This document shows, one piece after another, positions 3,718 to 55,961 of a stretch of 64,000 nucleotides of DNA. The notes under the pieces were generated by a model, which searched no databases, was not told the origin of the DNA, and saw only the letters and a program-made list of their open reading frames with translations. The position numbers and the translations under genes were made by a program. The first letter of the stretch is position 1. Each line of letters starts with the position of its first letter. Source of the DNA: Agelas oroides (Eukaryota; Porifera; Demospongiae; Agelasida; Agelasidae); NCBI GenBank assembly GCA_949130485.1, contig OX422188.1:1883722-1947721 (forward strand), written 5' to 3'.

Positions 3718-3735
3718 GGGAAGGAGGCTAGATAG

Positions 3736-3786: not shown

Positions 3787-4013
3787 AGCCGGACTCCATC
3801 GGCTCCAGACTAAATCACTGGGATCCTTGCACATCTACCTCACACCATATAGACCCCTTTCTCATGCATTCTCTGCTTGACTGTACATGACTTTAGAACA
3901 CTCTACCATGGCTGTACTTGACTCTACTGCACTCCACCATGGCTCTACAAGGCTCTACCAAACTCTACTACACTCTACCATGGCTCTACTTGGCTCTACT
4001 AGACCCTACCCAA

Positions 4014-4191
4014 GCGAAGTAGAGCTAACTACAGCCATGGTAGAGTGTAGTAGAGTCAAGTAGAATCGAGTAGAACCATGGTAGAATGTAATAGAGTCAT
4101 GGTGACTCAAGTAGAGCAATGGTAGAATGTAGTAGAGCCAAGCAGAATCAAAGAGATCAAGTAGGAGCCATGGTAGAGACTATGGTAGAAT
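4014..4191 (-). repeat. Inverted satellite block near the left edge
   Basis: About 178 bp in which the satellite runs on the opposite strand (GTAGAGTCAAGTAGA, CCATGGTAGAGTG). It is bounded by plus-oriented units on both sides (ending ACCCAAGC before, starting CTCCGCTACATT after). The copy is degenerate, which fits an array edge. Confidence 0.88.
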
Positions 4192-4485
4192 GGCTCCGCT
4201 ACATTCTACCATGTCTCTACTTGAATCTACATGACTCTACAACATTCTACCATGGCTTTACTTGACCCTACTTCACTCCACTACACTCTACCATGGCTCT
4301 ACGTGACTCTACTTGAGCTCTAGCTACTTTACTCTACTACACTCTACCATGGCTCTACTTGGCTCTACTGCACTCTACCATGGCTCTACTACATTCTACC
4401 CTGGCTCTATACGTGACTTTACTTGACTCTACTACACTTTTCCACGGCTCTACTTGTCTCTACTTGACTCTACTACACTCTACCA

Positions 4486-5570
4486 TGGCTCTACTACATT
4501 CTACCATGGCTCTACGTGACTCTACTTGACTCTACTACACTTTACCATGGCTCTACATGGCTCTTCTTGACTCTAGACTACTACACTCTACTATGGCTCT
4601 ACTTGCCTCCACTTGGCTTTACTACACTCTACCATGGCTCTACTGCATTCTACAAATGCTCTACTTGACTGTGCTACTCTTTACCATGGCTCTACTTGCC
4701 TCTACTTGACTCTACTACACCCTACCATGGCTCTACTTGGCTATACTTTCCTCTCCTACACTCTACCATGGCTCTACACCATTTTACCATGGCTCTACTT
4801 GACTCTAGTTTCCTGTACTACATTTTACAATGGCTCTATACTTGGCTCTCTTTGACTCTACTACATTCTTACATGGCTCTACTTCACTCTTCATTACTCT
4901 ACTACGTTCTACCATGGCTCTACTTGGCTCTACTTGACTCTACTACACTCTACCATGGCTATCCTTGACTCTACTACACTCTACCATGGCTCTACTTGGC
5001 TCTACTTGACTCTACTACACTCTACCATGGCTCTACTACATTCTACCATGGCTCTATGTGACTCTACTTGACTCTACTACACTTTACCATGGCTCTACAT
5101 GGCTCTTCTTGACTCTAGACTACTACACTCTACTATGGCTCTACTTGCCTCCACTTGGCTTTACTACACTCTACCATGGCTCTACTGCATTCTACAAATG
5201 CTCTACTTGACTGTGCTACTCTTTACCATGGCTCTACTTGCCTCTACTTGACTCTACTACACCCTACCATGGCTCTACTTGGCTATACTTTCCTCTCCTA
5301 CACTCTACCATGGCTCTACACCATTTTACCATGGCTCTACTTGACTCTAGTTTCCTGTACTACATTTTACAATGGCTCTATACTTGGCTCTCTTTGACTC
5401 TACTACATTCTTACATGGCTCTACTTCACTCTTCATTACTCTACTACGTTCTACCATGGCTCTACTTGGCTCTACTTGACTCTACTACACTCTACCATGG
5501 CTATCCTTGACTCTACTACACTCTACCATGGCTCTACTTGGCTCTACTTGGCTCTACTACACTCTACCAT
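4486..5570 (+). repeat. 542-bp tandem duplication
   Basis: Copies at about 4486-5027 and 5028-5570 agree base for base over most of their length, including the distinctive CTTCTTGACTCTAGACTACT and TTTCCTGTACTACATTTTAC. A third, partial copy follows at about 5590-5850. Copy borders are approximate because the base repeat blurs them. Confidence 0.88.
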
Positions 5571-6649
5571 GGCTCTACTCCATTCTACCATGACTCTACT
5601 TGACTCTACTACACCCTACCATGGCTCTACTTGGCTATACTTTCCTCTCCTACACTCTACCATGGCTCTACACCATTTTACCATGGCTCTTCTTGACTCT
5701 AGTTTCCTGTACTACATTTTACAATGGCTCTATACTTGGCTCTCTTTCACTCTACTACATTCTTACATGGCTCTACTTCACTCTTCATTACTCTACTACG
5801 TTCTACCATGGCTCTACTTGGCTCTACTTGACTCTACTACACTCTACCATGGCTCTACTCCATTCTACCATGACTCTACTTGACTCTACTTGACTTTCCT
5901 ACGCTCTACCATGGCTCTTCTTGACTCTACTTGGCTCTACTACACTCTACCATAGCTATCGTTGGCTCTTCTTGACTCTACTACACTCTACCATGGCTCT
6001 ACTTGACTTTACATTACTCTACTACGTTCTACCATGGCTCTACTTGGCTCTACTTGGCTCTACTACACTCTACCATGGCTCTACTTGGCTCTACTTAGCT
6101 CTACTTGGCTCTACTACACTCTACCATGGCTCTACTTGGCTCTACTTGGCTCTACTACACTCTACCATGGCTCTACTACATTCTACCACGGCTCTACCTG
6201 ACTCTACACGACTCTACTACATTTTACTATGGCTCCACCTGACTCTACCTGACTCTACTACACTCTTTCCATGGCTATACTTGAATCTACTACACTCTAT
6301 ACCATGGATCAACTTGACTCTACTTGACTTTACTGCACTCTACCATGTCTCTACTTGACTCTACTGGACTTTACCATGTCTCTACTTGGCTATACTTGGC
6401 TCTACTGGACTCTACTGTGTCTCTACTTGGCTATACTTGGCTCTACTACACTCTACCATGGCTCCACTACATTCTACCTTCTCTCTACTTTACTCTACAT
6501 GACTCTACCACATTCTACCATGGCTTTACTTGACCCTAGTTGACTCTACCCTGGCTCTACTTGACTCTACCTGAATATGCTTGACGCTACTACACTCTAC
6601 AATGGCTCTACTTGGCTCTACTTCGCTCTACTACACTCTACCATGGCTG

Positions 6650-7272
6650 ATTAAAATTTTCACTAAACCCTCCTACTGTCCTCATCAATATGCCGCACAG
6701 CGCCTCAGAGATGACGTCTTCATCAGAAACTCGAACCCGTACCCTGAGATACATACTTCGGTCCCGGGGGATTTACATCGATGAACCCGCAATCGCCTCC
6801 CCGGAGATACAGTCTGAGCCTCCCCCGACGCAGGACGACAGCATCAACACCGTACAGGAGACACCGAACAGTAAATTCAGACTGATCCTCCCTGTAACGC
6901 CGTGCATGCCCCATACAAGTAGCTTAGAATATATTAACCATAGCTCTTCCCCCCTACTGTTTAGCCCCACCCCAATCCCAGCCCATGTCCCTACCTCTAA
7001 CTCCCCCCAGGACCACCCACCTCTCCCCCACCTAGCCCCACCAATAGTCCCTGCAATACTAGTTCCCAGCATGAAGAATCCCTACCCGTATCCCCTGAAC
7101 TATTCAGCCCCACCCCCACAAGTACCACAATCCAGAACAAGTGGCCATCACCCCCCCCCTCTTCCTCAACGATCCCCACGCATTAGAAGACACAGGCTAC
7201 ATAATTATGCAAGCCTTGCTTCAACAAATGGGAGCTACGATGTGCGTAGCAGTGTTGGCGCTCCCCCACCTG
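6650..7272 (+). other. Non-satellite island with a proline-rich open frame
   Basis: Unique sequence interrupts the array between CTCTACCATGGC and CCTCTACACCATTC. An open frame starts at ATG 6690 and stays open through the whole island (about 195 codons), then runs into satellite and stops near 7313. Its start is rich in Ser, Thr and Arg (MTSSSETRTRTLRYILRS), the middle is Pro-rich (HPPLPHLAPPIVP, NYSAPPPQVPQ), and a basic patch follows (SPRIRRHRLHN). The plus strand is C-rich and T-poor, so stops are rare and openness is weak evidence for coding. It may be a captured exon or a fragment of a mobile-element protein. I recognise no domain, and no target duplication or terminal repeat is visible. 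Confidence 0.5.
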
Positions 7273-9093
7273 ACACCCCAACCTCTACACCATTCTACCA
7301 TGGCTCTATTTGACTCTCACAATTGCCTCTACTACAGTCTATATTGGCTCTACTGCATTCTACCATGTCTCTGCGTGACTGTACATGACTTTACAACACC
7401 TACAATGACTCCACTTGATTCTACTTGACTCTACTGCACTCCACCATGGCTCTACCACACTCTACTACACTCTATACCATGGCTCTACTTGGCTCTCCTT
7501 GGCTCTACTACACTCTACCATGGCTCTACTTGACTCTACTTTCCTGTACTACATTCTACTATGGCTCTACTTGGCTCTCCTTGACTCTACTACATTCTTC
7601 CATAACTCTACTACTTGACTCTTCATTACTCTACTACGTTCTATCATGGCTCTACTTGGCTCTACTTCACTCTACTACACTCTACCGTGGCTATCCTTGA
7701 CTCTACTACACTCTAACATGGCTCTACTTGGCTCTACGTGGCGCTACTACACTCTACCATGGCTCTACTCCATTCTACGATGGCTCCACTTGACTCTACT
7801 TGACTCTCCTACGCTCTACCATGGGTCTACTTGACTCTACTTGGCTCTTCTACACTCTACCATGGCTGTCGTTGGATCTAGACTCTACTACACTCTACCA
7901 TGGCTCTACTTGGCTCTACTTGACTCTACTACGTTCTACCATGGCTCTATACTTGACTCTACTTCACTCTACTTCACTCTACCATGTCTCTACTTGGCTA
8001 TACTTGGCTCTATACTGCAATCTACCATGGCTCTACTTGGCTCTGCTACACTCTACCATCGCTCCACTACATTCTACCTTCTCTCTACTTTACTCTACAT
8101 GACTCTACCACATTCTACCATGGCTTTACTTGACCCAAGTTGACTCTACTACACTCTACCATGGCTCTATACTTGGCTCTACTTGACTCTACTACACTCT
8201 ACCATGGCTTTACTACATTCTACCATGGCTCTACTTGACTCTACTTGACTCTCCTACACTCTACCATGGCTCTATACTTGACTCTATACTTGACTCTACT
8301 ACACTCTACCATGGCTCTACTTGGTTTTACTTGACTCTACTGCACTGCACCATGGCTCTACCCATGGTTCTACTTGAATCTACTTGACGCTACTACACCC
8401 TACCATGGATCTACTTTATTCTACTTGACTTTATAACACTCTACAATGGCTCTACTTGGCTCTACTTGACTCTATTACACTCTCCCATGGCTCTACTTTG
8501 CTCTACTTGGCTCTACTGCACTCCAACATGGCTCTACATCACTCTACCAGACTCTACTACACTCTACCTTGTCTCTACTTGGCTATACTTGGCTCCTCTA
8601 CACCCTACCATGACTCTACTTGGCTCTACTTGGCTCCTCTACACCCTACCATGGCTCTACTTGGCTCTATTTGGCTCTACTACACCGTGCTCTACCATGG
8701 CTCCACTACATTCTACCTTCTCTCTACTTTACTCTACATGACTCTACCACATTCTACCATGGCTTTACTTGACCCTAGTTGACTCTACTACACTCTACCA
8801 TGGCTCTATACTTGGCTCTATACTTGGCTCTACTTGACTCTACTACATTCTACCATGGCTCTCCTACATTCTACCATGGCTCTACTTTACTCTACTTGAC
8901 TCTCCTACACTCTACCATGGCTCTACCTGGCTCTACTTGGCTCTACTACACTCTACCATGGCTCCACTACATTCTACCTTCTCTCTACTTTACTCTACAT
9001 GACTCTACCACATTCTACCATGGCTTTACTTGACCCTAGTTGACTCTAGTACACTCTACCATGGCTCTACTTGGCTCTACTTGATTCTACTAT

Positions 9094-9304
9094 GGTCAAC
9101 TAGGGTCAAGTAAATCCATGCTAGAACGTGGTAGACTCATGTAGAGTAATGTGTAGCCATATTAAAATGTAGTAGAATAGTGTAGAGTCAGGTAGAGCCA
9201 TGGTAGAATGTAGTAGAGCCATGGTAGAGTGTAGTACAGCCAAGTAGAGTCAAGTATAGAGTGTAGGAGAGTCAAGGAGAGTCATGGTAGAATGTAGTAG
9301 AGCC
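9094..9304 (-). repeat. Inverted satellite block forming a local foldback
   Basis: About 211 bp on the opposite strand. Its reverse complement (ending in TTTACTTGACCCTAGTTGAC) closely resembles the plus-oriented stretch about 50-100 bp to its left (9000-9045, TTTACTTGACCCTAGTTGAC), so the two can pair as a hairpin. The nearby copy differs at several bases, so the inversion is not very recent. Confidence 0.85.
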
Positions 9305-12300
9305 TACTACACTCTACCGTGGCTCTACTTGACTCTACCTGAATCTATACTTGACTTTACTACTCTCTACTTGGCTCTACTACACTCTTCCATGGCTCTA
9401 CTTGACTCTACGTCGCTCTACTACATTCTACCGTTCCTCTACTTGACTCACCATGACTTTACTACATTCTACCATGGTTCTACTAGACTCTACCTGAATC
9501 TACATGACGCTACTACACTCTACCATGGATCTACTTGACTCTACTTGACTTTACTACACTCTACCATGGCTCTACTTGGCTCTACTTGACTCTATTACAC
9601 TCTACCATAGCTCTACTTTGCTGTACTTGACTCTACTACACTCTACCATGGCTCTATTTGGATCTCCTTGGCTCTACTACATTCTACCTTGGCTCTACTG
9701 CATTCTACCATGGCTCTAAGTGACTGTACATGACTTTACAACACTCTACCATGGCTCTACTTGGCTCTACTTGGCTCTTCTACACTCTACCATGGCTCTA
9801 CTTGGCTATACCTGGCTCTACTACACTCTCCTACACTCTACCATGGCTCTACTTTGCACTACTTGGCTCTCCTACACTCTTCCATGGTTCTACTCCATTC
9901 TACCATGGCTTTACCGGACTCTACACGACTCTACTGCATTTTAATATGGCTCCACTTGACTCTACCTGAGTCTGCTACACTCTTCCATGGCTCTACTTGA
10001 CTATACTTGACTCTACTACACTCTACCACGGCTCTACTTCACTCTACTTGAATCTCTTGACGCTACTACACTCTAACATGGATCAACTTGACTCTACTTG
10101 ACTTTACTATACACTCTACCATGGACTCTACTTCACTCTACTTCACTCTACTCCACTCTCCTTTGTCCCTACTTGGCTATACTTCACTCTATACTGCAAC
10201 TTACCATGGCTCTACTTGGCTCTACTTGGCTCTACTGCACTCTACCATGGCTCTATTTGGCTCTACTTGGCTCTATTACATTCTACCTTGGCTCTACTGG
10301 ATTTTACCATGGCTCTAAGTGACTGTACATGACTTTACAACACTCTACCATGTTTCTACTTCACTCTACTTGACTCTACTGCACCATGGCTCTACATGGT
10401 TCTACCAGACTCTACTACACTCTACCATGGCTCTACTTGGCTCTCCTACACTCTACCATGCCTCTACTTGACTCTACTTTCCTGTACTGCATTCTACCAT
10501 GGCTCTACTTGGCTCTCCTTGACTCTACTACATTCTTCCATGGCTCTACATGACTCTTCATTACTCTACTACGTTCTACCATGGCTCTACTTGCATGGCT
10601 CTCCTTGACTCTACTACATTCTTCCATGGCTCTACATGACTCTTCATTACTCTACTACGTTCTACCATGGTTCTACTTGACTCTAATTGACTCTCCTACA
10701 CTCTACCATGGCTCTACTTGAGTCTACTCGGCTCTACTACACTCTAACATGGCTCTACTTGGCTATACTTGGCTCTACTACACTCTCCTACACTCTACCA
10801 TGGCTCTACTTTGCTCTACTTGGCTCTCCTACACTCTACCATGGTTCTACTCCATTCTACCATAGCTTTACCAGACTCTACTTGACTCTACCTGAGTATA
10901 CTACACTTTTCCATGGCTCTACTTGACTATACTTGACTCTACTTCACTCTACCCTGGCTCTACTTCACTCTACTTGGATCTACTTGATGCTACTACACTC
11001 TACCATGGATCAACTTGGCTCTACTTGACTGTACTACACTCTACCATGGCTCTACTTGACTTTACTCCACTCTACTTCACTCTACCTTCACTCTTCTACA
11101 CTCTATCATGGCTCACCTTGGCTCTACTTGGCTCTACTACATTCTACCATGGATCTACCTGAGTCTAGACGACTCTACTACATTTTACTAATGCTCCACT
11201 TGACTCTATCTGAGTCTGCTACACTCTTCCATGGTTCTACTTAGTTCTACTACACTCTACCATGGCTCTACTTGACTCTACTTTTCTGTACTGCATTCTA
11301 CCATGACTCTACTTGGCTCTACTTGACTCTACTACACTCTACCATGGCTTTACTTGGCTCTACTTGACTCTATTACACTCTACCATGGCTCTACTTTGCT
11401 CAATGTCACACTACTTCACTCTACCATGGCTCTATTTAGCTCCACTAGACTCTACTACATTCTACCTTGGCTCTACTGCATTCTACCATGTCTCTAAGTG
11501 ACTGTACATAACTTTACAACACTCTACCATGGCTCTACTTAACTCTACTTCATTCTACTGCACTCCGCCATGGGTTTACATGGCTCTACCAGACTCTACT
11601 ACCCTCTACCATGGCTCTCCTTGACTCTACTTGACTCTCCTACACTCTACCATGCCTCTACTTGACTCTACTGGGCTCTACTACACTCTACCATGGCTCT
11701 CATTGCCTCTACTTGACTCTACTACACTCTATGATGGATCTACTCGGCTCTCCTTGACTCTACTGCATTCCTCCACGGCTCTACTTGAGTCTTCATTACT
11801 CCACTACGTTCTACCATGGTTCTACTTGGCTCTACTTGACTCTACTACACTCCACCATGGCTCTCCTTCTCACTACTACACTCTACCATGGTTCTCCTTG
11901 ACTCTACTTGACTCTCCTACACTCTACCATGGCTCTACTTGACTCAACTGGGCTCTACTACACTCTACCATGGCTCTCGTTCCCTCTACTTGACTCTACT
12001 GCACTCTACCATGGCTCTACTCGGCTCTACTTGACTCTACTATAGTCTACCATGGCTCTACTTCACTTTACATTACTCTACTACGTTCTACCATGCCTCT
12101 ACTTGGCTCTACTCGGCTCTACTACATTCTCCCATGGCTCTACGTGATTCTACTTGACTCTACTATGCTGTACCATGGTTCTACTTGGCTCTACTTGGCT
12201 CTATTACACTCTACCATGACTCTACTCCATTCTACCATGGCTCTACTTCACTCTACTTGACTCTCCTACACTCTACCATGGCTCTCGTTGGCTCTACTTG

Positions 12301-12866
12301 ACTCTACTACACTCTACCATGGCTCTACTTGGCTCTACTTGACTCTACTACACTCTATCATGGCTCCACTACATTCTAACTTCTTTACACATTCTATCAT
12401 GGCTTTACTTGACCCTAGTTGACTCTACTACACTCTACCATGGATCTACTTGGATCTACTTTACTCTAGTACATTCTACAATGGCTGTACTTGACTCACC
12501 ATGACTCTACTACATTCTACCATGGTTCTACTTGACTCTACTACAGTCTACCATAGCTCTACTTGGCTCTATACTACATTCTACCTTGGCTCTACTGCAT
12601 TCTACCATGGCTATGTGACTATGCATTGCTTTACAACACTCTACTATGGCTCTACTTGACTCCACTTGACTCTACTGCACTCCCCCATGGCTCTACATGG
12701 CCATACTAGACTCTCCTACACTCTACCATGGCTCTACTTGGGTCTACTTGGCTCTACTACACTCTACCATGGCTCCACACCATTCTACCATGGCTCTACC
12801 TGACTCTACTTTCCTGTACTGCATTCTACCATGGCTCTACTTGGATCTCCTTGACTCCTGGACTCT

Positions 12867-13004
12867 AGTAGAGCCATGGTAGAGTGTAGTAGAGCCAAGT
12901 AGAACCAAGTAGAGTGAAGTAAAGTCAAGCAGAGTCAAGTAGAGCCATGGTAGAACGTAGTAGAGTAATGAAGAGTCAAGTAGAGCCATGAAAGAAATGT
13001 AGTC
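12867..13004 (-). repeat. Inverted satellite block, family copy 1
   Basis: About 138 bp of reverse-oriented satellite, entered through GACTCCTGGACTCT and left through GAAATGTAGTCCATTC. The same block with the same edges recurs at 33691 and 37561, so it predates the higher-order duplications that carried it. Confidence 0.87.
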
Positions 13005-14429
13005 CATTCTACCATGGCTCTACTTGACTCTACTTGACTCTCCTGCACTCTACCATGGCTCTACTTGACTTTACATTACTCTATACTACGTTCTACCATG
13101 GCTCTACTTGGCTCTACTTGACACTTCTACACACTACCATGGCTCTACTACATTCTACCATGGCTCTACTTAACCATACTTGACTCTCCTACACTGTACC
13201 ATGGTTCTACTCCATTCTACCATGGCTCTACTCCATTCTACCATGGCTCTACTACACTCTATTACACTCTACCGTGGCTCTACTTTGATTCTACTTCACT
13301 CTACCATGCCTCTATTTAGCTGCACCTGACTCTACTACATTCTACCTTGGCTCTACTGCATTCTACCATGGCTCTAAGTGACTGTACATGACTTTACAAC
13401 ACTCTACCATGGCTCTACTTAACTCTACTTGATTCTACTGCACTCCACCATGGGTCTACATGGCTCTACCAGACTCTACTTCACTCTTCTATGGCTCTCC
13501 TTCTCACTACTACACTCTACCATGGTTCTCCTTGACTCTACTTGACTCTCCTACACTCTACCATGGCTCTACTTGACTCTACTGGGCTCTACTACACTCT
13601 ACCATGGCCGGCTCTGGTTGCCTCTACTTGACTCTACTACACTCTACCATGGCTCCACTCGGCTCTACTTGACTCTATACTATAGTCTACCATGGCTCTA
13701 CTTGACTTTACATTACTCTACTACGTTCTACCATGCCTCTACTTGGCTCTACTTGGCTCTACTACATTCTACCATGGTTCTATGTGATTCTACTTGACTC
13801 TCCTACACACTATCATGGCTCTACTTGGCTCTACGTGGCTCTACTACACTCTACCATGGCTCTACTTGACTCTGCTATGCTGTACCATGGTTCTACTTGG
13901 CTATACTTGACTCTACTACACTCTACCATGACTCTACTCCATTCTACCATGGCTCTACTTCACTCTACTTGACTCTCCTACACTCTACCATGGGTCTACT
14001 TGACTCTACTTTGCTCTACTACACTCTACCATGGCTCTCGTTGGGTCTACTTCACTCTACTACACTCTACCATGGTTCTCCTTGACTCTACTTGACTTTC
14101 CTACACTCTACCATGTCTCTACTTGACTCTACTGGGCTCTACTACACTCCACCATGGCTCTCATTGTCTGTACTTGACTCTACTACACTCTAAGATGGAT
14201 CTACTCGGCTTTCCTTGACTCTACTGCATTCCTCCACGGCTCTACTTGAGTCTTCATTACTCCACTACGTTCTACCATGGTTCTACTTGGCTCTACTTGA
14301 CTGTACTACACTCTACCATGGCTATACTTCTCACTACTACACTCTACCATGGTTCTCTACTTGACTCTCCTACTCTCTACCATGGCTCTACTTGCCTCTA
14401 CTAGGCTCTACTACACTCTACCATGGCTC

Positions 14430-15900
14430 TCGTTCCCTCTACTTGACTCCACTACACTCTACCATGGCTCTACTCGGCTCTACTTGACTCTACTATACTC
14501 TACCATGGCTCTACTTGACTTTACATTACTCTACTACGTTCTACCATACCTCTACTTGGCTCTACTTGGCTCTACTACATTCTACCATGCCTCTACGTGA
14601 TTCTACTTGACTCTCCTACACACTATCATGGCTCTACTTGGCTCTACGTGGCTCTACTACACTCTACCATGGCTCTACCTGGCTCTACTTGACTCTACTG
14701 TGCTGTACCATGGCTCTACTTGGCTCTACTACACTCTACCATGACTCTACTCCATTCTACCATGGCTCTACTTGACTCTACTTGACTCTCCTACACTCTA
14801 CCATGGGTCTACTTGACTCTACTTTGCTCTACTACACTCTACCATGGCTCTCGTTGGTTCTACTTGACTCTACTACATTCTACCATGGCTCTACTTCACT
14901 TTACATTACTCTACTACTTTCTACCATGGCTCTACTTGACTCTACTTCACTCTACTCCACTCTACCATGTGTCTACTTGGCTATAATTGGCTCTACTACA
15001 ATCTACCATGGCTCTACATGGCTCTACTTTGCTCTACTACACTCTACCATGGCTCTCGTTGGCTCTACTTGACTCTACTACCCTCTACCATGGATCTACT
15101 TGGCTCTACGTGGCTCTACTGCACTCTACCATGGCTCGACTTGACTCTATCTGAATCTACTTGAGGGTACTACACTCTACCATGGATATACTTGACTCTA
15201 CTTCACTCAACTGCCCTCCACCATGGCTCTACATGCCTATACCTGACTCTATTTCACTGTGCAATGGCTCCACTTAGCTCTACTTGGCTCTACTACACTC
15301 TACCATTGCTCTTCTACATTCTACCGTGCCTCTACGTGACTGTACTTGACTCTACTGCACTTTACAATGGCTCTACTTGGCTTCTCCTTGACTCTACTTT
15401 ACCTTGCCATGGCTGTACTTGGCTCTACTTGACTCTGCTGCACTCTATACCATGGCTCTATACTTGGCTCTACTTTGCTATACTATACTCTACCATGGCT
15501 CTACTACAGTCTACCATGGTTCTACTTGACTCTATTTGACTTTACTACACTCTAGCATGGCTCTACTTGACTCTACCTGAATCTGCTTGACGCTACTACA
15601 CTCTACCATTGATCTATTTGACTCTACTTGACTTTACTACACTCTACAATGGCCCTACTCATCTCTACTTGGCTCTACTACACTCTTCCATGGCTCTATT
15701 TGGTTCTACTGCATTCTACCATTGCTGTACTTGACTCACCGTGACTCTATTACATTCTACCATGGTTCTACTTGATTCTACTTGACTCTATTACACTCTA
15801 CCATGGCTCTACTTTGCTCTACTTGACACTACTACATTCTACCTTGGCTCTACTGCATTCTACCATGGCTCTAAGTGACTGTACATGACTTTACAACACT
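14430..15900 (+). repeat. Higher-order unit, copy at 14.4-15.9 kb
   Basis: This block (marked by CTCTCGTTCCCTCTACTTG, TCTACTTGGCTATAATTGGC and TACTTGAGGGTACTACAC) recurs 4,402 bp downstream from about 18.8 kb and, more diverged, near 39.4-40.8 kb. It carries the undisrupted form (CTCTACCATTGATCTATTTG) of the site that a MITE occupies at 21443-22112. Confidence 0.75.
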
Positions 15901-37560: not shown

Positions 37561-37657
37561 AGTAGAGCCATGGTAGAGTGTAGTAGAGCCAAGTAGAGCG
37601 AAGTAGAGTGAAGTAAAGTCAAGCAGAGTCAAGTAGAACCATGAAAGAAATGTAGTC
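37561..37657 (-). repeat. Inverted satellite block, family copy 3 (shortened)
   Basis: Same edges as copies 1 and 2, but about 41 bp shorter: one CCATGG-bearing stretch is missing between AAGCAGAGTCAAGTAGA and ACCATGAAAGAAATG. The loss of about one 41-bp unit suits slippage or unequal exchange. Confidence 0.85.
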
Positions 37658-40600: not shown

Positions 40601-41374
40601 TTGACGCTACTACACTCTACCATTGATCTATTTGACTCTACTTGACTTTACTACACTCTACAATGGCCCTACTCATCTCTACTATGCTCTACTACACTCT
40701 TCCATGGCTCTACTTGGTTCTACTGCATTCTACCATTGCTCTACTTGACTCACCGTGACTCTATTACATTCTACCATGGTTCTACTTGATTCTACTTGAC
40801 TCTATTACACTCTACCATGGCTCTACTTTGCTCTACTTGACTCTACTACACTCTACCATGGCTGTAGTTGGCTCTACTTGGCTCTACTACATTCTATCTT
40901 GGCTCTACTGAATTCTACCATGGCTCTGCTTGTCTGTAAATGACTTTACAACACTCTACCATGGCTCTACTCGACTCTACTTGACTCTACTGCACTCCAC
41001 CATGGCTCTATATGGCTCTACCATACTCTACTTCACTCTACCCGGCATGGCTCTACTTGGCTCTACCTGCGTCTACTAGACTCTACCATGGCATTCTACC
41101 ATGTCTCTACTTGAATCTACATGACTCTAAAACATTCTACCATGGCATTACTTGACCCTACTTCACTCCACTACCCTCTACCATGGCTCTACGTGACTCT
41201 ATGTGAATCTACTTGTCTCTACTACACTCTGCCATGGATCTACTTGACTCTACTTGACTTTACTACACTCCACCATGGTTCTACATGCATGTCTCTACTT
41301 GGCTGTACTACACTCTTCCATTGGCTCTACTTGGCTCTACTTTGCTCTACTACACTCTACCATGGCTCTCGTTG

Positions 41375-44300
41375 GCTCTACATTGCTCTACTACACTCTA
41401 CCATGGCTCTAAACTCTACCATGGCTCTACTTGACTCTAGTTTTCTGTACCACATTTTATCATGGCTCTATACTTGGCTCTCTTTGACACTACTACATTA
41501 TTTCATGGCTCTACTTGACTCTTTATTAATCTACTACACTCTACCATGGCTCTACTTGGCTCTACTACACTCTAACATGGCTGTACTTGACTTTATAAGT
41601 TACTCTACTACGTTCTACCATGGCTCCACTTGACTTTTCTACACTCTACCATGGCTCTACTTGACTCTACTACACTCTACCATGGCTCTTCTACACTCTA
41701 CCATTGCTCTACTTGACTCTATTACACCCTACCATGTGCTCTAGTTGGCTCTATACTTGGCTGTACACCATTCTACCATGGCTCTACTTGACTCTACTTT
41801 CCTGTACTACATTCTACAATGGCTCTACCTGCGTCTCCTTGACTCTACTACACTCTACCATGGCTCTACTACATTCTACCATTGCTCTACTTGACTCTAT
41901 TTGACTCTCCTACACCCTACCATGGGCTCTAGTTGGCTCTACTTGGCTCTACTACACTCTAACATGGCTTTACTCCATTCTACTATGGCTCTACTGGACT
42001 CTACTTGACTCTCCTACAGTCTAACATGGCTCTACTTGACTCTACTACACTCTACCATGGATCTACGTAGCTCTATCTACTGCACTCTACCATGGCTCCA
42101 CTTAGCTCTACTTTACACTACTACACTCTACCATGGCTCTAGTTGGCTCTATACTGCACTCTACCATGGCTCTACTACATTCTACCATGGCTCTACGTGA
42201 CTCTACTTGACTCGACTACACTTTACCATAGCTCTACTTGGCTCTACTGGACTCTACTACACTCTACCGTGGCTCCACTACATTCTACCATGGTTCTATG
42301 TGACTGTACTTGTCTCTACTACACTTTAGCATGGCTCTACTGGGCTCTACATGACTGTACTACAATCTATTATGGCTCTACTTGGCTCTACTTGGCACTA
42401 CTACACTCTACCATGGATCTACTACATTCTACAATGGCTCTAGTGACTCTACTACACTTAACCATGGCTCCACTTGGCTCTATTACACCCTACCATGTGC
42501 TCTAGTTGGCTCTATACTTGGCTGTACACCATTCTACCATGGCTCTACTTGACACTACTTTCCTGTACTACATTCTACAATGGCTCTACCTGCGTCTCCT
42601 TGACTCTACTACACTCTACCATGGCTCTACTACATTCTACCATTGCTCTACTTGACTCTATTTGACTCTCCTACACCCTACCATGGGCTCTAGTTGGCTC
42701 TACTTGGCTCTACTACACCCTAACATGGCTTTACTCCATTCTACTATGGCTCTACTGGACTCTACTTGACTCTCCTACAGTCTACCATGGCTCTACTTGA
42801 CTCTACTACACTCTACCATGGATCTACTTAGCTCTATCTACTGCACTCTACCATGGCTCCACTTAGCTCTACTTTACACTACTACACTCTACCATGGCTC
42901 TACTTGGCTCTATACTGCACTCTACCATGGGTCTACTACATTCTACCATGGCTCTACGTGACTGTACTTGACTCTACTACACTTTTCCATGGCTCTACGT
43001 GGCTCTACTTGACTCTACTACACTCTACCATGGCTCCACTACATTCTACCATGGCTCTATGTGACTGTACTTGACTCTACTACACTTTAGCATGGCTCTA
43101 CTGGGCTCTACATGACTGTACTACAATCTATTATGGCAATACTTGGCTCTACTTGGCACTACTACACTCTACCATGGATCTACTACATTCTACAATGGCT
43201 CTACGTGACTCTACTACACTTAACCATGGCTCTACTTGGCTCTACTTGACTCTACTACACTCTACCATGGCTCTACTTGGCTCTACTGTGCTCTACTACA
43301 CTCTACCATGGCTCTACTTGACTCTCGTTTCCTGTACTACATTTTACCATGGTTCTACTTGGCTCTCTTTGACTCTACTACATTCTTCCATGGCTCTTCA
43401 TTACTCTACTACATTCTACTATGGCTCTACCTGCCTCTACTTGACTCTACTACACTCTACCATGGCACTAGTTGGCTCTACTTGACTCTAGCTACTACAC
43501 TCTACCATGGCTCTACTTGACTTTACTTTGCTCTACTACACCCTACCAAGGCTCTCGTTGGCTCTTCTTGACTCTACTACACTCTACCATGGCACTACAT
43601 GGCTCTATTTGTCTCTACTCTATATACACTCTACCATGGCTCTACGTGAACTTACATTACTCTTCTACGTTCTACCATGGCTCTACTTGGCTCTACTTGA
43701 CTCTTCTACACTATACCATGGCTCTGCTTGGCTCTACTACACTTTACCATGGCTCTACTTGGCTCTACTTGACTCTACTACACTCTACCATGGCTCTACT
43801 TGGCTCTACTTTGCTCTACTATACACTCTACCATGGCTCTACACCATTCTACCATGGCTCTACTTGACTCTAGTTTCCTGTACTACATTTTACCATGGTT
43901 CTAGTTGGCTCTCTTTGACTCTATTACATTCTTCCATGGCTCTTCATTACTCTACTACGTTCTACCATGGCTCTAGTTGGCTCTACTTGCCTTTACTACA
44001 CTCTTCCATGGCTCTACTCATTTCTACCATGGATCTACTTGACTCTACTTGTCTCTCCTACACTCTACCATGGCTCTACTTGACTTTACTTTGCTCTACT
44101 ACACTCTACCATGGCTCTACATCATTCTACCATTGCTCTATACTTGACTCACCATGACTCTACTACATTCTACCATGGTTCTACTGGAATCTACTTTACT
44201 CTATTACACTCTACCATGGCTCTACTTTGCTCTACTTGACTCTACTACACTCTACCATGGCTCTACTTGGCTGTACTTGTCTCTACTGCATTCCACTATG

Positions 44301-47300
44301 GTTCTATATGGCTCTACCAGACTGTACTACAGTCTACCATGGTTGTACTTGGCTCTAGCTACTTGGCTCTACTACACTCTACCATGGCTCTATACCATTC
44401 TACTATGGATCTACTTGTCTCTACTTGGCTCTACTGCATTCTACCATGTCTCTACATGACTGTACATGACTTTACAACAGTCTACCATGACTCTACTTGA
44501 TTCTACTTGACTCTACTGCACTCCACCATGGCTCTACCACACTCTACTACACTCTATACCATGGCTCTCCTTGATACTACTACATTCTTCCATGGCTCTA
44601 CTTGGCTTTTCATTAATCTACTACGTCCTACCATGGCTCTACTTGCCTCTACTTGACTCTACTATACACTCTACCATGGCTCTACTTGACTCTACTACAC
44701 TCTACCATGTCTCTACTTGGCTCTACTACACTCTACCATGGCTCTACTACATTCTATACCATCGCTCTACTTGACTCTATTTGACTCTCTTACACTCTAC
44801 CAAGGCTCTACTTGGCTCTACTTGACTCTACTACACTCTACCGTGGCTCTAGTTGGCTCTACTTGGCTCTACACCATTCTACCATGGCTCTACTTGAGTC
44901 TACTTTCCTGTACTACATTCTACTATGGCTCTACTTGCCTCTCCTTGACTCTACTACATTCATCCATGGCTCTACTTGACTCTTCATTACTCTACTATGT
45001 TCTACCATGGCTCTACTTGGCTATACTTGACTCTACTATACTCTAACATGGCTCTATGTGGCTCTACTTGGCTCTACTACACTCTAACATGGCTTTACTC
45101 CATTCGACTATGGCTCTACTGCACTCTACTTGACTCTCCTACAGTTTACCATGGCTCTACTTGACTCTACTACACTTTACCATGGCTCTACTTGACTCTA
45201 CTTGATTCTACTACTCTCTACCATGGCTCTACTTGGCTCTACATTGCTCTACTACACTCTACCATGGCTCTAAACTCTACCATGGCTCTACTTGACTCTA
45301 GTTTTCTGTACCACATTTTATCATGGCTCTATACTTGGCTCTCTTTGACACTACTACATTATTTCATGGCTCTACTTGACTCTTTATTAATCTACTACAC
45401 TCTACCATGGCTCTACTTGGCTCTACTACACTCTAACATGGCTGTACTTGACTTTATAAGTTACTCTACTACGTTCTACCATGGCTCCACTTGACTTTTC
45501 TACACTCTACCATGGCTCTACTTGACTCTACTACACTCTACCATGGCTCTTCTACACTCTACCATTGCTCTACTTGACTCTATTACACCCTACCATGTGC
45601 TCTAGTTGGCTCTATACTTGGCTGTACACCATTCTACCATGGCTCTACTTGACTCTACTTTCCTGTACTACATTCTACAATGGCTCTACCTGCGTCTCCT
45701 TGACTCTACTACACTCTACCATGGCTCTACTACATTCTACCATTGCTCTACTTGACTCTATTTGACTCTCCTACACCCTACCATGGGCTCTAGTTGGCTC
45801 TACTTGGCTCTACTACACTCTAACATGGCTTTACTCCATTCTACTATGGCTCTACTGGACTCTACTTGACTCTCCTACAGTCTAACATGGCTCTACTTGA
45901 CTCTACTACACTCTACCATGGATCTACGTAGCTCTATCTACTGCACTCTACCATGGCTCCACTTAGCTCTACTTTACACTACTACACTCTACCATGGCTC
46001 TAGTTGGCTCTATACTGCACTCTACCATGGCTCTACTACATTCTACCATGGCTCTACGTGACTCTACTTGACTCGACTACACTTTACCATAGCTCTACTT
46101 GGCTCTACTGGACTCTACTACACTCTACCGTGGCTCCACTACATTCTACCATGGTTCTATGTGACTGTACTTGTCTCTACTACACTTTAGCATGGCTCTA
46201 CTGGGCTCTACATGACTGTACTACAATCTATTATGGCTCTACTTGGCTCTACTTGGCACTACTACACTCTACCATGGATCTACTACATTCTACAATGGCT
46301 CTAGTGACTCTACTACACTTAACCATGGCTCCACTTGGCTCTATTACACCCTACCATGTGCTCTAGTTGGCTCTATACTTGGCTGTACACCATTCTACCA
46401 TGGCTCTACTTGACACTACTTTCCTGTACTACATTCTACAATGGCTCTACCTGCGTCTCCTTGACTCTACTACACTCTACCATGGCTCTACTACATTCTA
46501 CCATTGCTCTACTTGACTCTATTTGACTCTCCTACACCCTACCATGGGCTCTAGTTGGCTCTACTTGGCTCTACTACACCCTAACATGGCTTTACTCCAT
46601 TCTACTATGGCTCTACTGGACTCTACTTGACTCTCCTACAGTCTACCATGGCTCTACTTGACTCTACTACACTCTACCATGGATCTACTTAGCTCTATCT
46701 ACTGCACTCTACCATGGCTCCACTTAGCTCTACTTTACACTACTACACTCTACCATGGCTCTACTTGGCTCTATACTGCACTCTACCATGGGTCTACTAC
46801 ATTCTACCATGGCTCTACGTGACTGTACTTGACTCTACTACACTTTTCCATGGCTCTACGTGGCTCTACTTGACTCTACTACACTCTACCATGGCTCCAC
46901 TACATTCTACCATGGCTCTATGTGACTGTACTTGACTCTACTACACTTTAGCATGGCTCTACTGGGCTCTACATGACTGTACTACAATCTATTATGGCAA
47001 TACTTGGCTCTACTTGGCACTACTACACTCTACCATGGATCTACTACATTCTACAATGGCTCTACGTGACTCTACTACACTTAACCATGGCTCTACTTGG
47101 CTCTACTTGACTCTACTACACTCTACCATGGCTCTACTTGGCTCTACTGTGCTCTACTACACTCTACCATGGCTCTACTTGACTCTCGTTTCCTGTACTA
47201 CATTTTACCATGGTTCTACTTGGCTCTCTTTGACTCTACTACATTCTTCCATGGCTCTTCATTACTCTACTACATTCTACTATGGCTCTACCTGCCTCTA

Positions 47301-49096
47301 CTTGACTCTACTACACTCTACCATGGCACTAGTTGGCTCTACTTGACTCTAGCTACTACACTCTACCATGGCTCTACTTGACTTTACTTTGCTCTACTAC
47401 ACCCTACCAAGGCTCTCGTTGGCTCTTCTTGACTCTACTACACTCTACCATGGCACTACATGGCTCTATTTGTCTCTACTCTATATACACTCTACCATGG
47501 CTCTACGTGAACTTACATTACTCTTCTACGTTCTACCATGGCTCTACTTGGCTCTACTTGACTCTTCTACACTATACCATGGCTCTGCTTGGCTCTACTA
47601 CACTTTACCATGGCTCTACTTGGCTCTACTTGACTCTACTACACTCTACCATGGCTCTACTTGGCTCTACTTTGCTCTACTATACACTCTACCATGGCTC
47701 TACACCATTCTACCATGGCTCTACTTGACTCTAGTTTCCTGTACTACATTTTACCATGGTTCTAGTTGGCTCTCTTTGACTCTATTACATTCTTCCATGG
47801 CTCTTCATTACTCTACTACGTTCTACCATGGCTCTAGTTGGCTCTACTTGCCTTTACTACACTCTTCCATGGCTCTACTCATTTCTACCATGGATCTACT
47901 TGACTCTACTTGTCTCTCCTACACTCTACCATGGCTCTACTTGACTTTACTTTGCTCTACTACACTCTACCATGGCTCTACATCATTCTACCATTGCTCT
48001 ATACTTGACTCACCATGACTCTACTACATTCTACCATGGTTCTACTGGAATCTACTTTACTCTATTACACTCTACCATGGCTCTACTTTGCTCTACTTGA
48101 CTCTACTACACTCTACCATGGCTCTACTTGGCTGTACTTGTCTCTACTGCATTCCACTATGGTTCTATATGGCTCTACCAGACTGTACTACAGTCTACCA
48201 TGGTTGTACTTGGCTCTAGCTACTTGGCTCTACTACACTCTACCATGGCTCTATACCATTCTACTATGGATCTACTTGTCTCTACTTGGCTCTACTGCAT
48301 TCTACCATGTCTCTACATGACTGTACATGACTTTACAACAGTCTACCATGACTCTACTTGATTCTACTTGACTCTACTGCACTCCACCATGGCTCTACCA
48401 CACTCTACTACACTCTATACCATGGCTCTCCTTGATACTACTACATTCTTCCATGGCTCTACTTGGCTTTTCATTAATCTACTACGTCCTACCATGGCTC
48501 TACTTGCCTCTACTTGACTCTACTATACACTCTACCATGGCTCTACTTGACTCTACTACACTCTACCATGTCTCTACTTGGCTCTACTACACTCTACCAT
48601 GGCTCTACTACATTCTATACCATCGCTCTACTTGACTCTATTTGACTCTCTTACACTCTACCAAGGCTCTACTTGGCTCTACTTGACTCTACTACACTCT
48701 ACCGTGGCTCTAGTTGGCTCTACTTGGCTCTACACCATTCTACCATGGCTCTACTTGAGTCTACTTTCCTGTACTACATTCTACTATGGCTCTACTTGCC
48801 TCTCCTTGACTCTACTACATTCATCCATGGCTCTACTTGACTCTTCATTACTCTACTATGTTCTACCATGGCTCTACTTGGCTATACTTGACTCTACTAT
48901 ACTCTAACATGGCTCTATGTGGCTCTACTTGGCTCTACTACACTCTAACATGGCTTTACTCCATTCGACTATGGCTCTACTGCACTCTACTTGACTCTCC
49001 TACAGTTTACCATGGCTCTACTTGACTCTACTACACTTTACCATGGCTCTACTTGACTCTACTTGATTCTACTACTCTCTACCATGGCTCTACTTG
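41375..49096 (+). repeat. Near-identical 3,861-bp tandem duplication
   Basis: Copies at about 41375-45235 and 45236-49096. Every mark checked recurs at exactly +3,861 (41406/45267, 41704/45565, 42143/46004, 43507/47368, 44717/48578, 44976/48837), and the derived open frames are identical throughout. I saw no difference by eye. From about 49097 a related but clearly diverged, partly deleted third copy continues to about 52.4 kb. Confidence 0.92.
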
Positions 49097-50682
49097 GCTC
49101 TACATTGCTCTACTACACTCTACCATGGCTCTACACCATTCTACCATGGCTCTACTTGACTCTAGTTTCCTGTACTACATTTTACCATGGCTCTACTTGG
49201 CTCTCTTTGACACTACTACATTATTTCATGGCTCTACTTGACTCTTTATTAATCTACTACACTCTATACCATGGCTCTACTTGGCTCTACTACACACTAA
49301 CATGGCTGTACTTGACTTTATAAGTTACTCTACTACGTTCTACCATGGCTCCACTTGACTCTTCTACACTCTACCATGGCTCTACTTGACTCTACTACAC
49401 TCTACCATGGCTCTACTACACTCTACCATTGCTCTACTTGACTCTATTACACCCTACCATGGGCTCTAGTTGGCTCTATACTTGGCTCTACACCATTCTA
49501 CCATGGCTCTACATGACTCTATACTTTCCTGTACTACATTCTACAATGGCTCTACCTGCGTCTCCTTGACTCTACTACACTCTACCATGGCTCTACTTGG
49601 CTCTACTACACTCTACCATGGCTCTACTACATTCTACCATTGCTCTACTTGACTCTATTTGACTCTCCTACACCCTACCATGGGCTCTAGTTGGCTCTAT
49701 ACTACACTCTAACATGGCTTTACTCCATTCTACTATGGCTCTACTGGACTCTACTTGACTCTCCTACAGTCTACCATGGCTCTACTTGACTCTACTACAC
49801 TCTACCATGGATCTACGTAGCTCTATCTACTGCACTCTACCATGGCTCCACTTAGCTCTACTTTACACTACTACACTCTACCATGGCTCTACTTGGCTCT
49901 ATACTGCACTCTACCATGGCTCTACTACATTCTACCATGGCTCTACGTGACTCTACTACACTTTTCCATGGCTCTACGTGGCTCTACTTGACTCTACTAC
50001 ACTCTACCATGGCTCTACACCATTCTACCATGGCTCTACGTGACTCTAGTTTCCTGTACTACATTTTACCATGGTTCTACTTGGCTCTCTTTGACTCTAC
50101 TACATTCTTCCATGGCTCTTCATTATACTACGTTCTACTATGGCTCTACTTGGCTCTACTTGACTCTACTACACTCTACCATGGCTATACTTGACTCTAC
50201 TACACTCTACCATGGCTCTAGTTGGCTCTACTTGCCTTTACTACACTCTTCCATGGCTCTACTCAATTCTACCATGGATCTACTTGACTCTAGTACTTGT
50301 CTCTCCTATACTCTACCATGGCTCTACTTGACTTTACTTTGCTCTACTACACTCTACCATGGCTGTCGTTGGCTCTTCTTGACTCTACTACACTCTACCA
50401 TGGCACTACGTGGCTCTACTTGACTCTACTACACTCTACCATGGCACTACGTGGCTCTATTTAACTCTACTATATCACTCTAACATGGCTCTACGTGACT
50501 TTACATTGCTCTTCTATGTTCTACCATGACTCTACTTGGCTCTACTTGACTCTTCTACACTATACTATGGCTCTGCTTGGGTCTACTGCACTCTACCATG
50601 GGTCTACTACACTCTACCATGGCTCTACTACATTCTAACATGGCTCTGCTTGACTCTACTTGACTCTCCTACACTCTACCTT

Positions 50683-50755
50683 GTCTCGTTCCCAGACCAC
50701 ATTTTTCGCGCGCGCCCGCTTTCCCGCTCGGTGAAAAGTTGTCTGGGCACGAGAC
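50683..50755. mobile_element. 73-bp hairpin mini-element inside the satellite
   Basis: Non-satellite DNA with ends GTCTCGTTCCCAGAC and GTCTGGGCACGAGAC, inverted repeats matching at 14 of 15 positions, around a GC-rich centre (TTCGCGCGCGCCCG). TACACTCTACC occurs on both flanks, but the satellite itself could supply that, so the target duplication cannot be fixed. The termini resemble those of the hairpin at 59137-59192. Confidence 0.8.
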
Positions 50756-50967
50756 TACACTCTACCATTGCTCTACTTGGCTCTACTTGGCTCTACTTGG
50801 CTCTACTTGGCTCTACTACACTCTACTTGGCTCTATATACTTGACTGTACTACGCTGTATCATGGCTCTACTACACTCTACCATGGCTCTACTAGATTCT
50901 ACCATGCCTCTACCTGACTCTACTACACTCTTCCACGGCTATACGTCACTCTACCATGACTCTATCA

Positions 50968-50992
50968 TAGAGCCATGGTAGAGTAAAGTTGA
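50968..50992 (-). repeat. Very short inverted satellite fragment
   Basis: One reverse-oriented piece (AGAGCCATGGTAGAGT) sits between plus-oriented units, next to CTCTATCAT, and forms a small hairpin. Confidence 0.6.
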
Positions 50993-53900
50993 CTCGACTT
51001 GAATCTACTTGACGCTACTACACTCTTCAATGGATCAACTTGACTCTACTTGACTTTACTACACTCTACCATGGCTCTACTTGACTCTACTCGACTCTAC
51101 CATGTCTCTACTTGGCTATACTTGGCTCTACTACAATCTACCATGGCTTTACCTCACCCTAGTTGACTCTACTATACTCTACCATGGCTCTACTTGACTC
51201 TACATGAATCTACTTGATGCTAGTACACTCTACAATGGCTCTACTTGGCTCTACTTGGCTCTACTTGGCTCTACTACATTCTACCATTGCTCTACTTGAC
51301 TCACCATGACTCTACTACATTCTACCATGGTTCTACTTGACTCTACTTTACTCTATTACTCTCTACCATGGCTCTACTTTGCTCTACTTGACTCTATACT
51401 ACACTCTACCATGGCTCTACTTGGCTGTACTTGTCTCTACTGCATTACGACACTCTACCATTCCTCTAGCATGGCTCTACTTGACTCTACGTTCCTGTAC
51501 TACATTCTACTATGGCTCTACTTGGCTCTCCTTGATACGCTCTACTTGACCCTAACATGGCTTTACTCCATTCTACTATGGCTCTACTGGACTCTACTTG
51601 ACTCTCCTATAGTCTACCATGGCTCTACTTGACTCTACTACACTCTGCCATGGATCTACGTAGCTCTATCTACTGCACTCTACCATGGCTCCACTTAGCT
51701 CTAATTTACACTACTACACTCTACCATGGCTCTACTTGGCTCTATACTGCATTCTACCATGGCTCTACTACATTCTACCATGGCTCTATGTGACTGTACT
51801 TGACTCTACTACACATTAATCTACTACGTCCTACCATGGCTCTACTTGGCTCTACTTGACTCTACTACACTCTACCATGGCTCTAGTTGGCTCTACTTGG
51901 CTCTACACCATTCTACCATGGCTCTACTTGAGTCTACTTTCCTGTACTACTTTCTACCATGGCTCTACTTGCTTCTCCTTGACTCTATACTACATTCATC
52001 CATGGCTCTACTTGACTCTTCATTACTGTACTATGTTCTACTATGTTCTACCATGGCTCTACTTGGCTATACTTGACTCTACTATACTCTACCATGGCTC
52101 TACGTGGCTCTACTTGGCTCTACTACACTCTAACATGGCTTTACTCCATTCTACTATGGCTCTACTGGACTCTACTTGTCTCTCCTATAGTCTACCATGG
52201 CTCTACTTGACTCTACTACACTCTACCATGGATCTACGTAGCTCTATCTACTGCACTCTACCATGGCTCCACTTAGCTCTAATTTACACTACTACACTCT
52301 ACCATGGCTCTACTTGGCTCTATACTGCACTCTACCATGGCTCTACCACATTCTACCATGGCTCTATGTGACTGTACTTGACTCTACTACACTTTAGCAT
52401 GGCTCTACTGGGCTCTACATGACTCTACTACAATCTACTATGGCTCTACTTGGCTCTCTTTGACTCTACTACACTCTACCATGGCTCTACTTGGCTCTAC
52501 TTGACTCTTCTACATTATACCATGGCTGTGCTTGGGTCTACTACACTCTACCATGGCTCTACTACATTCTACCATGCATGGCTCTGCTTGACTCTACTTG
52601 ACTCTCCTACACTCTATACCATGGCTCTACTTGGCTCTACTTGGCTCTATACTACACTCTACCATGGCTCTACTAGATTCTACCACGGCTCTACTTGCCT
52701 CTACACGACTCTACTACATTTTACTATGGCTCTACTTGACTCTAGCTGACTCTACTACACTCTTCCACGCCTATACTTCACTCTACCATGGTTCTATTTG
52801 ACTCGACTTGAATCTATACTTGACGCTACTACACTCTACAATGGATCAACTTGACTCTACTACACTCTACCATGGCTCTACTTGACTCTACTGGACTCTA
52901 CCATGTCTCTACTTGGCTATACTTCGCTCTACTACAATCTACCATGGCTTTACTTGACCCTAGTTGACTCTACTACACTCTATCATGGCTCTACTTGACT
53001 CTACATGAATCTACTTGATGCTAGTACACTCTACAATGGCTGTACTTGGCTCTACTACATTCTTCCGTGGCTCTACTTTGCTCTACTTGACTCTACTACA
53101 CTCTACCATGGCTCTACTTGTCTCTACTGCACTCCACCATGGTTCTATATGGCTCTACCAGACTCTACTACACTCTAGCATGGTTGTACTTGGCTCTACT
53201 TGGCTCTACTACACACTACCATGGCTCTACACCATTCTACCATGGATCTACTTGTCTCTACTTGGCTCCACTACAGTCTACCTTGGCTTTACTGCATTCT
53301 ACCATGTCTCTACATGACTGTACATAACTTTACAACAGTCTACCATGACTCTACTTGATTCTACTTGACTCTACTGCACTCCACCATGGCTCTACCACAC
53401 TCTACTACACTCTATACCATGGCTCTACTTGACTCTACTACACTCTACCATTGCTCTAGCATGGCTCTACTTGACTCTACGTTCCTGTACTACATTCTAC
53501 TATGGCTCTACTTGGCTCTCCTTGACTCTACTACATTCTTCCATGGCTCTACTTGGCTCTTCATTAATCTACTACGTCCTACCATGGATCTACTTGGCTC
53601 TACTTGGCTCTACTACACTCTACCATGGCTCTACTTGACTCTACTACACTCTACCATGGCTCTGCTTGGCTGTACTTTGCTCTACTACACTCTACCATGG
53701 CTCAACTTGACTCTACTTCACTGTACTTCACCCTGCCGTGTCTCTACTTGGCTCTACTACACTATACCATGGCTCTACTACATTCTACCATCGCTCTACT
53801 TAACTCTATTTGACTCTCCTACACTCTACCATGGCTCTACTTGGCTCTACTTGACTCTACTACACTCTACCGTGGCTCTAGTTAGCCCTACTTGGCTCTA

Positions 53901-55961
53901 CACCATTCTACCATGGCTCTAATTGAGTCTACTTTCCTGTTCTACATTCTACCATGGCTCTACTTGCCTCTTCATTACTCTACTATGTTCTACCATGGCT
54001 CTACTTGGCTCTACTTGCCTCTACTACACTCTACCATGGCTCTACTTGGCTCTACTTGGCTCTACTACACTCTACCATGGCTATACACTATTCTACCATG
54101 ACTCCACTTGACTCAATTTTCCTGTACTACATTCTACCATGGCTCTACTTGCCTCTCCTTGACTCTACTACGTCCTACCATGGCTCTACTTTGCTCTACT
54201 TGACTCTACTTCACTCTACCATGGCTCTACTTGACTCTACTACACTCTACCATGGCTCTACTTGACTCTACTACACTCAACCATGGCTCTACCTGGCTCT
54301 ACTACACTCTACCATGGCTCTACTTGACTCTACTTCACTGTACTTCACTCTACCATGTCTCTACTTGGCTCTACTACACTCTACCATGGCTCTACTACAT
54401 TCTACCAACGCTCTACTTGACTCTATTTGACTCTCCTACACTCTACCATGGCTCTACTTGGCTCTACGTGACTCTACTACACTCTACCTTGGCTCTACAC
54501 CATTCTACCATGGCTCTACTTGAGTCTACTTTCCTGTACTACATTCTACCATGGCTCTATTTGCCTCTCCTTGACTCTACTACTCTACGTGACTCTTCAT
54601 TACTCTACTATGTTCTACCATGGCTCTACGTGGCTCTACTTGCCTCTACTACACTCTACCATGGCTCTACTTGGCTCTACTTGGCTCTACTACACTCTAC
54701 CATGGCTATACACTATTCTACCATGACTCCACTTGACTAAACTTTCCTGTACTACATTCTACCATGGCTCTATTTGCCTCTCCTTGACTCTACTAGATTC
54801 TTCCATGGCTCTACTTGACTCTTCATTACTCTACTACGTTCTACCATGGCTCTACGTGGCTCTACTTGACTCTACTACACTCTACCATGGATCTACTTGA
54901 CTCTACTTGACTTTACTACACTCCACCATGGTTCTACATGTCTCTACTTTGTTCTATTTGGCTCTACTATACACTCCACTATAGCTCCACTATATTCTGT
55001 GGCATGTCTCTACTTGACTATATATGTCACTCTACTACATTCTACCATGCATGGCTCTACTTGGGTCTACTTGAATCTACTTGACTCTACTACACTCTAC
55101 CATTGATGTACGTGACTCTACTTTACCACACTCTACCATGGCTCTACGTGACTCTACTTGACTCTCCTACACTCTACCATGGCTCTACTTGGCTCTACTA
55201 CGCTGTACCATGAATCTACTTGGCTCTGCTTAGCTCTACTACACTATACCATGGCTTTACTACATTCTACCATGGCTCTACCTGACTCTACTACATTTTG
55301 CAGTGGCTCCACTTTACTCTACATGAGTCTACCACATTCTACCATAGATTTACTTGACCCTAGTTGACTCTACTACACTCTACCATGACTCTACTTGACT
55401 CTACCTGAATCTACTTGACGCTACTACACTCTACCATGAATCTACAAGACTCAACTTGACTTTACCACACCCTAGAATGGCTCTACTTTGCTCTACTTGG
55501 CGCTACTACATTCTACCTTGGCTCTACTACATTCTACCATGGCTCTACTTGACTGTACTTGACTTTACAACACTCTACCATGGCTCTACTTGACTCTACT
55601 TCACTCTACTGCACTCCACCATGGCTCTACATGCCTATACCTGACCAGTCTACTTCACTCTATCATGGCTCCACTTAGCTCTACTTTACTCTACTACACT
55701 TTACCATGGCTCTACTTGGCTGTACTTTGCTCTACTACACTGTTCCCAGGGCCGCGGATAGAGGACGGGGGGCCCGTGGGAAGGATTTCACGCACAAAGC
55801 CCGAACTGATTTTTCGTTGTAGGCGTGGCAATTAATTAACGGTGTAGGTTCCACGCGTTTACATGTGTCTAAGTATTTTTCTACACTAACCATGAAAGTG
55901 CCACTGATTATTCTACCCAAGCGTTCATTCATTGAGCCCAGACGGGAGCATCTCTCCGCCC

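Follow-up and report, generated by a model that had tools for sequence, protein, structure and literature searches.

A ~52-kb satellite of degenerate words, each consisting of CTCTAC followed by 4 or 5 bases, occupies positions 3878-55741 of the window, by which we mean the whole 64,000-nucleotide stretch of Agelas oroides DNA that was analysed. Very probably, it is an interstitial satellite that expanded in situ, from a decamer and its 11-bp form to composites and from composites to blocks, with its helical phase kept without selection. Non-array DNA lies on both sides, with a zinc-finger gene to the left of it and one for a GABA-B-like receptor to the right. The DNA has a eukaryotic exon-intron look, and the gene pair and intron style suggest an animal. 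A preliminary description had the array running over about 52 kb; the extent holds, but the array is not continuous, being broken by two stretches in inverted orientation and by three pieces of other DNA. From left to right, the features are as follows.

729 to 3432, minus strand: zinc-finger gene, left neighbour (frames 729-1442 and 2854-3432)
3878 to 4009, plus strand: left end of the word array, by sequence, with tandem repeats starting at 3878
~4010 to 4200, minus strand: inverted array stretch, words in the form GTAGAG (approximate limits, judged by eye)
4201 to 6648, plus strand: word array
6649 to 7282, plus strand: non-array piece of ~0.6 kb with an open proline-rich frame (6651-7313; 220 aa, rich in proline and serine) for which a Pfam scan gave no match
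7283 to 9088, plus strand: word array
~9089 to 9303, minus strand: inverted array stretch (limits approximate, by eye)
9304 to 21442, plus strand: word array
21443 to 22111: transposon-like insert of 669 bp with ends CAGTGG.../...CCACTG and TACCA on both sides
22112 to 50682, plus strand: word array with near-identical duplications
50683 to 50755: foldback-like piece of 73 bp, its ends inverted, within the array
50756 to 55741, plus strand: word array up to its right end
58541 to 64000, plus strand: GABA-B-like receptor gene, right neighbour, split across exons by our reading of the sequence

Segmentation of five plus-oriented stretches yielded 4814 words: 3373 of 10 bp, 1278 of 11 bp and 163 of other lengths. 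Words of 10 or 11 bp therefore make up 96.6% of the total (4651/4814), an upper estimate since the segmentation penalises other lengths, and the mean is 10.30 bp (words of 9-12 bp), in agreement with the ~10.3 bp proposed earlier. The accompanying claim that almost every word starts with CTCTAC was too strong: the exact core is present in 51.9% of words, although TA occupies its place in 84.6%. The commonest linkers are CATGG (898 of the 4814 words), TTGA (807), TACA (806) and TTGG (435). Successive CATGG linkers are most often 41 bp apart (422 cases), followed by spacings of 82 bp (81), 62 bp (57), 31 bp (53) and 21 bp (49). Both of the composite units described previously are thus present, but those of 41 bp far outnumber those of 31 bp. 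Overall, this is a long, non-coding, head-to-tail array of the kind that defines a satellite. The observed/expected ratio of CpG is 0.20 in the array (22113-55741) compared with 0.56 at 1-3870 and 0.35 at 57701-64000, and either methylation of CpG by the host or simply the word content may lie behind this.

The words give the array a marked helical periodicity. TA autocorrelation (22113-55741) was 3.9 times expectation at lags 10 and 31 and 5.2 times at lag 41, and TA power in 147-bp windows peaked at 10.3 bp, at 7.5 times white noise (at most 1.0 for TA in the right flank). Phase coherence of TA at 10.3 bp was 0.63 in windows of this size, compared with 0.27 when bases were shuffled. These results bear out the proposal that TA recurs every 10-11 bp, and place the array, with a dinucleotide period of 10.3 bp above its shuffled control, among ~10-bp-periodic satellites. 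Shuffling the order of words lowered TA coherence from 0.629 to 0.575 (sd 0.005); the real order holds phase better because the 41-bp unit is regular. The mean TA-to-TA distance, 8.8-9.1 bp, is shorter than a word because there are extra TA steps, for example in the TACA linker. Peaks at 10.15-10.3 bp were, however, seen for 13 of the 16 dinucleotides (the exceptions being AA, GT and TT). TC had more power than TA (8.8 in 147-bp windows), and coherence at 10.3 bp was higher than that of TA for TC (0.72), TG (0.80), GC (0.82) and GG (0.90); among the seven dinucleotides tested, it was lower only for CT (0.38) and CA (0.59). The periodic signal belongs to the whole word, not to TA alone. A nucleosome repeat length was not singled out at 22113-50660, where the best lags were 41, 82, 10, 31, 72 and 123 bp and their sums.

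How, then, is phase kept? The array has been homogenised by internal duplication, as is characteristic of satellites: 41346-45272 and 45207-49133 are 99.92% identical over 3927 bp at an offset of 3861, a further duplication spans 2442 bp (99.1%, offset 2312), and near-identical copies occur at many offsets. We compared recent copies using 21 of 214 pairs, picked to avoid re-use and covering 17,838 aligned bp, and counted 9 indels of 1-2 bp against 242 substitutions, of which 146 fall in the core. The ratio of core substitutions to small indels in these recent pairs (146:9, or 16:1) is close to that for old changes, with 2940 core differences against 163 words that are not 10 or 11 bp long (18:1; 4814 words), and therefore phase-shifting changes have not been lost over time. 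Likewise, the ratio of old to recent changes was 17.6 for TA positions (776/44) and 21.2 for other core positions (2164/102), revealing no extra conservation of TA relative to the rest of the core (Fisher p 0.34). Nor was there compensation of slips by 11-bp words around words of 12-16 bp: their share was 29.6% in the next four words (n 490) and 28.9% before (n 488), with 27.5% overall. Finally, where collinear near-identical pieces jump between diagonals, 30 of 36 jumps were the size of words or composites (10-12, 20, 31, 41-43, 50-51 and 72 bp) and 6 were of 2 or 8 bp, in a count in which one event may recur, for example among the seven jumps of 72 bp or the seven of 31 bp. Thus, three tests (recent versus old changes, compensation and indel size) gave no sign of selection on phase and, since length changes involve mostly whole words or composites, in-register exchange suffices for phase to last. 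The count of small indels in the recent copies is nevertheless low (9 over the 17,838 bp that hold 242 substitutions). Elsewhere in the window a single further pair is available, the arms of a palindrome at 2081-2905, which differ by 15 mismatches and 1 gap. Small indels may be rarer in the array than in the host's other DNA, via constraint.

From these comparisons we infer a history in which a decamer (CTCTAC plus 4 bases) and an 11-bp form (CTCTAC plus CATGG) would have multiplied into composites of n x 10 + 1 bp, mostly 41 bp, which slippage or in-register unequal exchange would then have expanded to blocks as long as ~4 kb. TA and the other steps of the word would stay near 10.3 bp without selection because gains and losses are mostly of whole words. 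Helical phasing can accordingly arise without selection in decamer-word satellites that change by whole words, and any claim of selection for nucleosome binding in periodic satellites requires a null model of this whole-word kind.

The preliminary description had gone further, proposing that the array acts as an extreme nucleosome-positioning domain. The helical period is ~10.2 bp for nucleosomal DNA and 10.4-10.5 bp for free DNA, and that of the array, 10.3 bp, falls between the two. Relative to TA, GG/GC steps lie at -4.8 bp, half a turn away, with a coherence of 0.96, and all SS steps at 5.0 bp (0.90). A GG/GC step half a turn from TA is the textbook nucleosome arrangement, and this antiphase is a point that speaks against a view based on growth only. 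Other steps, with CC at +1.1 bp and AT and TT at +3.3 to +3.4 bp from TA, blur the textbook pattern. Runs of at least 4 A or T occur at 1.05 per kb in the array, compared with 8.3 and 13.5 in the flanks. The words, the duplications, the length changes, mostly in word units, and the TA/GC antiphase can all be read directly from the array. Given this arrangement, array DNA is likely to accept nucleosomes with a preferred rotational setting; we infer that such behaviour would be a by-product of growth, with TA facing inward, GG/GC facing outward and many translational positions near-equal. The array, being long, varied in sequence and fairly constant in phase, is a good natural test substrate.

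We scored this tendency as the best dyad per 200 bp, counting WW at inward minor grooves and SS at inward major grooves. Two parts of the array, of 142 and 60 blocks, had WW+SS scores of 19.2 and 18.8. Shuffling gave 16.6 (bases) and 17.9 (words), the flanks gave 16.2 and 14.6, and the best single block came from shuffled bases (28.1, compared with 26.4 in the array). A score based on TA only was 10.7 in both parts, 4.3 after shuffling, and 3.3 and 4.6 in the flanks. TA near every 10 bp, with G/C-rich steps half a turn off, is likewise the pattern of Widom 601 and of the Shrader-Crothers TG repeat, (TATAAACGCC)n. The TG repeat scored 65.3 for WW+SS against 19.2 for the array, on a crude scale where even Widom 601, with 14.5 across the 15 registers it allows, is not conspicuous.

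We then simulated 300 arrays, keeping the lengths of the first 900 words and drawing their letters at random. The observed TA power was reached by 17% of them (45% among those with TA in the core), and the observed WW power, SS power and WW+SS score by 74%, 74% and 80%, respectively. By these 300 simulations the pattern is not stronger than that of arrays made of random decamer words, and, given such words, the array is not unusual. Of the original proposal, a favourable rotational setting survives as likely, on the basis of the 10.3-bp period, the GG/GC antiphase and the scarcity of A-tracts, but the qualification 'extreme' does not. The latter is opposed both by the simulations and by the greater power of TC and the greater coherence of GG, GC, TG and TC than of TA.

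The same data bear on the idea that this is selected rotational-positioning DNA, in which selection would hold word length and TA/GC phasing for the sake of nucleosome organisation, in heterochromatin or a structural domain. The period of 10.3 bp, the half-turn offset of GG/GC, the few A-tracts and a TA coherence of 0.63 across 147 bp are what such selection might produce. However, the pattern is no stronger than in random-word arrays (17% reach the TA power and 80% the WW+SS score, n=300), TA is no better conserved than its neighbours, slips go uncompensated and other steps are equally or more periodic, and we consider this explanation unlikely. A more specific version, in which selection holds word length at one helical turn and ~52 kb of nucleosomes share one rotational setting with shifts of 10 bp, forming a chromatin block or insulator, is quite unlikely. 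Were it true that selection holds this C/T-rich, A-tract-poor satellite between two genes, the array would be a natural counterpart of the TG repeat.

The notion of nucleosome phasing by satellites is itself known, and is applied here to a new repeat. A 10-bp periodicity of satellites has already been proposed to favour rotational phasing and stable nucleosomes, with Drosophila 10-mers as a main case (PMC5844345, PMC8997354). Like the array, the 10-mers Prodsat (AATAACATAG) and AATAGAATTG present 10-bp words once per helical turn; unlike it, they are AT-rich and centromeric or pericentromeric, whereas the array is C/T-rich and lies between genes (PMC5844345, PMC8122249). The array also differs from them in its degenerate words, its 41-bp composites and its average of 10.3 bp, and there is no sequence relation. 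As perfect arrays, the D. simulans 10-mer AATAGAATTG scored 11.8 for TA and 0.7 for WW+SS (TA 10.7 for the sponge array), and Prodsat scored 0.6 and 14.2. With 10-bp WW-periodic satellites in general, the array shares the periodicity and its proposed effect, but these are discussed for centromeres (PMC8997354), while the pattern here is carried by TA and GG/GC, and CC and the remaining WW steps do not fully fit it. The chicken CNM repeat of 41-42 bp resembles the array in having a unit of about four helical turns, but it lies on microchromosomes and carries A3-5/T3-5 runs 6-7 bp apart, of which the array has few (PMC6435179). Tandem repeats in Bacillus similarly combine constant size with variable sequence; they are bacterial, with units of 52 or 20-21 nt (PMC8161180), and the array bears no sign of selection on length. 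Among the open-literature matches listed, none described the array repeat, and no paper in the open literature was found for 'TATA tetrads' together with 'nucleosome'. The exact 20-mer CTCTACCATGGCTCTACTTG had no match in viral, bacterial and archaeal contigs, a search that says little about animals.

Alternatively, the words could form an array of protein-binding sites, for example with the CCATGG in 11-bp words as the target, by analogy with the binding of Prod to Prodsat. CATGG is indeed the most frequent linker (898/4814), and the C, A, T, G and G of 11-bp words are kept at 87-95%. Since conservation in the core of these words is similar (90-96%, but 64% for the first C), the box does not stand out, and we regard binding sites as very unlikely to explain the array. 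A coding or transcribed repeat is highly improbable: strand skew is constant, with a GC skew mostly of -0.39 to -0.49 over the array, and open frames reach 221 aa, but none of the unit lengths 10, 11, 31 and 41 is divisible by 3, and a Pfam scan of a single array frame (43492-44157, 221 aa) gave no match. No Rfam family at gathering threshold was found within the window, which argues against a transcribed repeat. A structured RNA was rejected on the same result.

An intrinsically curved satellite domain, also suggested earlier, is scarcely credible: in a wedge-angle model of 147-bp segments, the predicted ratio of end-to-end distance to contour length was 0.90 for the array, slightly more bent than shuffled sequence (0.94) and the flanks (0.94 and 0.93) but far from the phased A-tract control (0.29), and the flanks have roughly ten times as many A/T runs of at least 4. 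The prediction is thus of a slight excess of bending and no strongly curved domain; in this model, neither phased A-tracts nor strong predicted curvature, the marks of a curved satellite, were found.

Turning to the surroundings of the array, a centromeric satellite is less likely, given gene-like DNA within ~0.5-3 kb on both sides. In the left neighbour, frame 729-1442 matches zf-C2H2 (E 5.7e-16), and frame 2854-3432 does so weakly and below the cut-off (E 0.024). In the right neighbour, frame 62133-62453 matches GABA-B subunit 2 (E 1.7e-05) and, below its cut-off, Pfam ANF_receptor (E 0.00078); a sequence search with the putative exon 58541-58813 returned no match. The large palindrome at 2081-2905, whose arms (2081-2433 and 2552-2905) are ~95% alike, probably represents a foldback transposon adjoining the array. 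Further left, at 226-567, inverted 25-bp ends (TACAGTGGACCCTCACCTATCCGGC) lie ~340 bp apart in what we take to have the look of a Tigger/pogo-type non-autonomous element. Immediately to the right of the array, 56004-57022 has inverted 46-bp ends (98%) around CGGAA-type short repeats, likewise inverted, and is likely to be a transposon. Long C and G runs (at least 22) at 55959-55982 and 57546-57571 flank this element.
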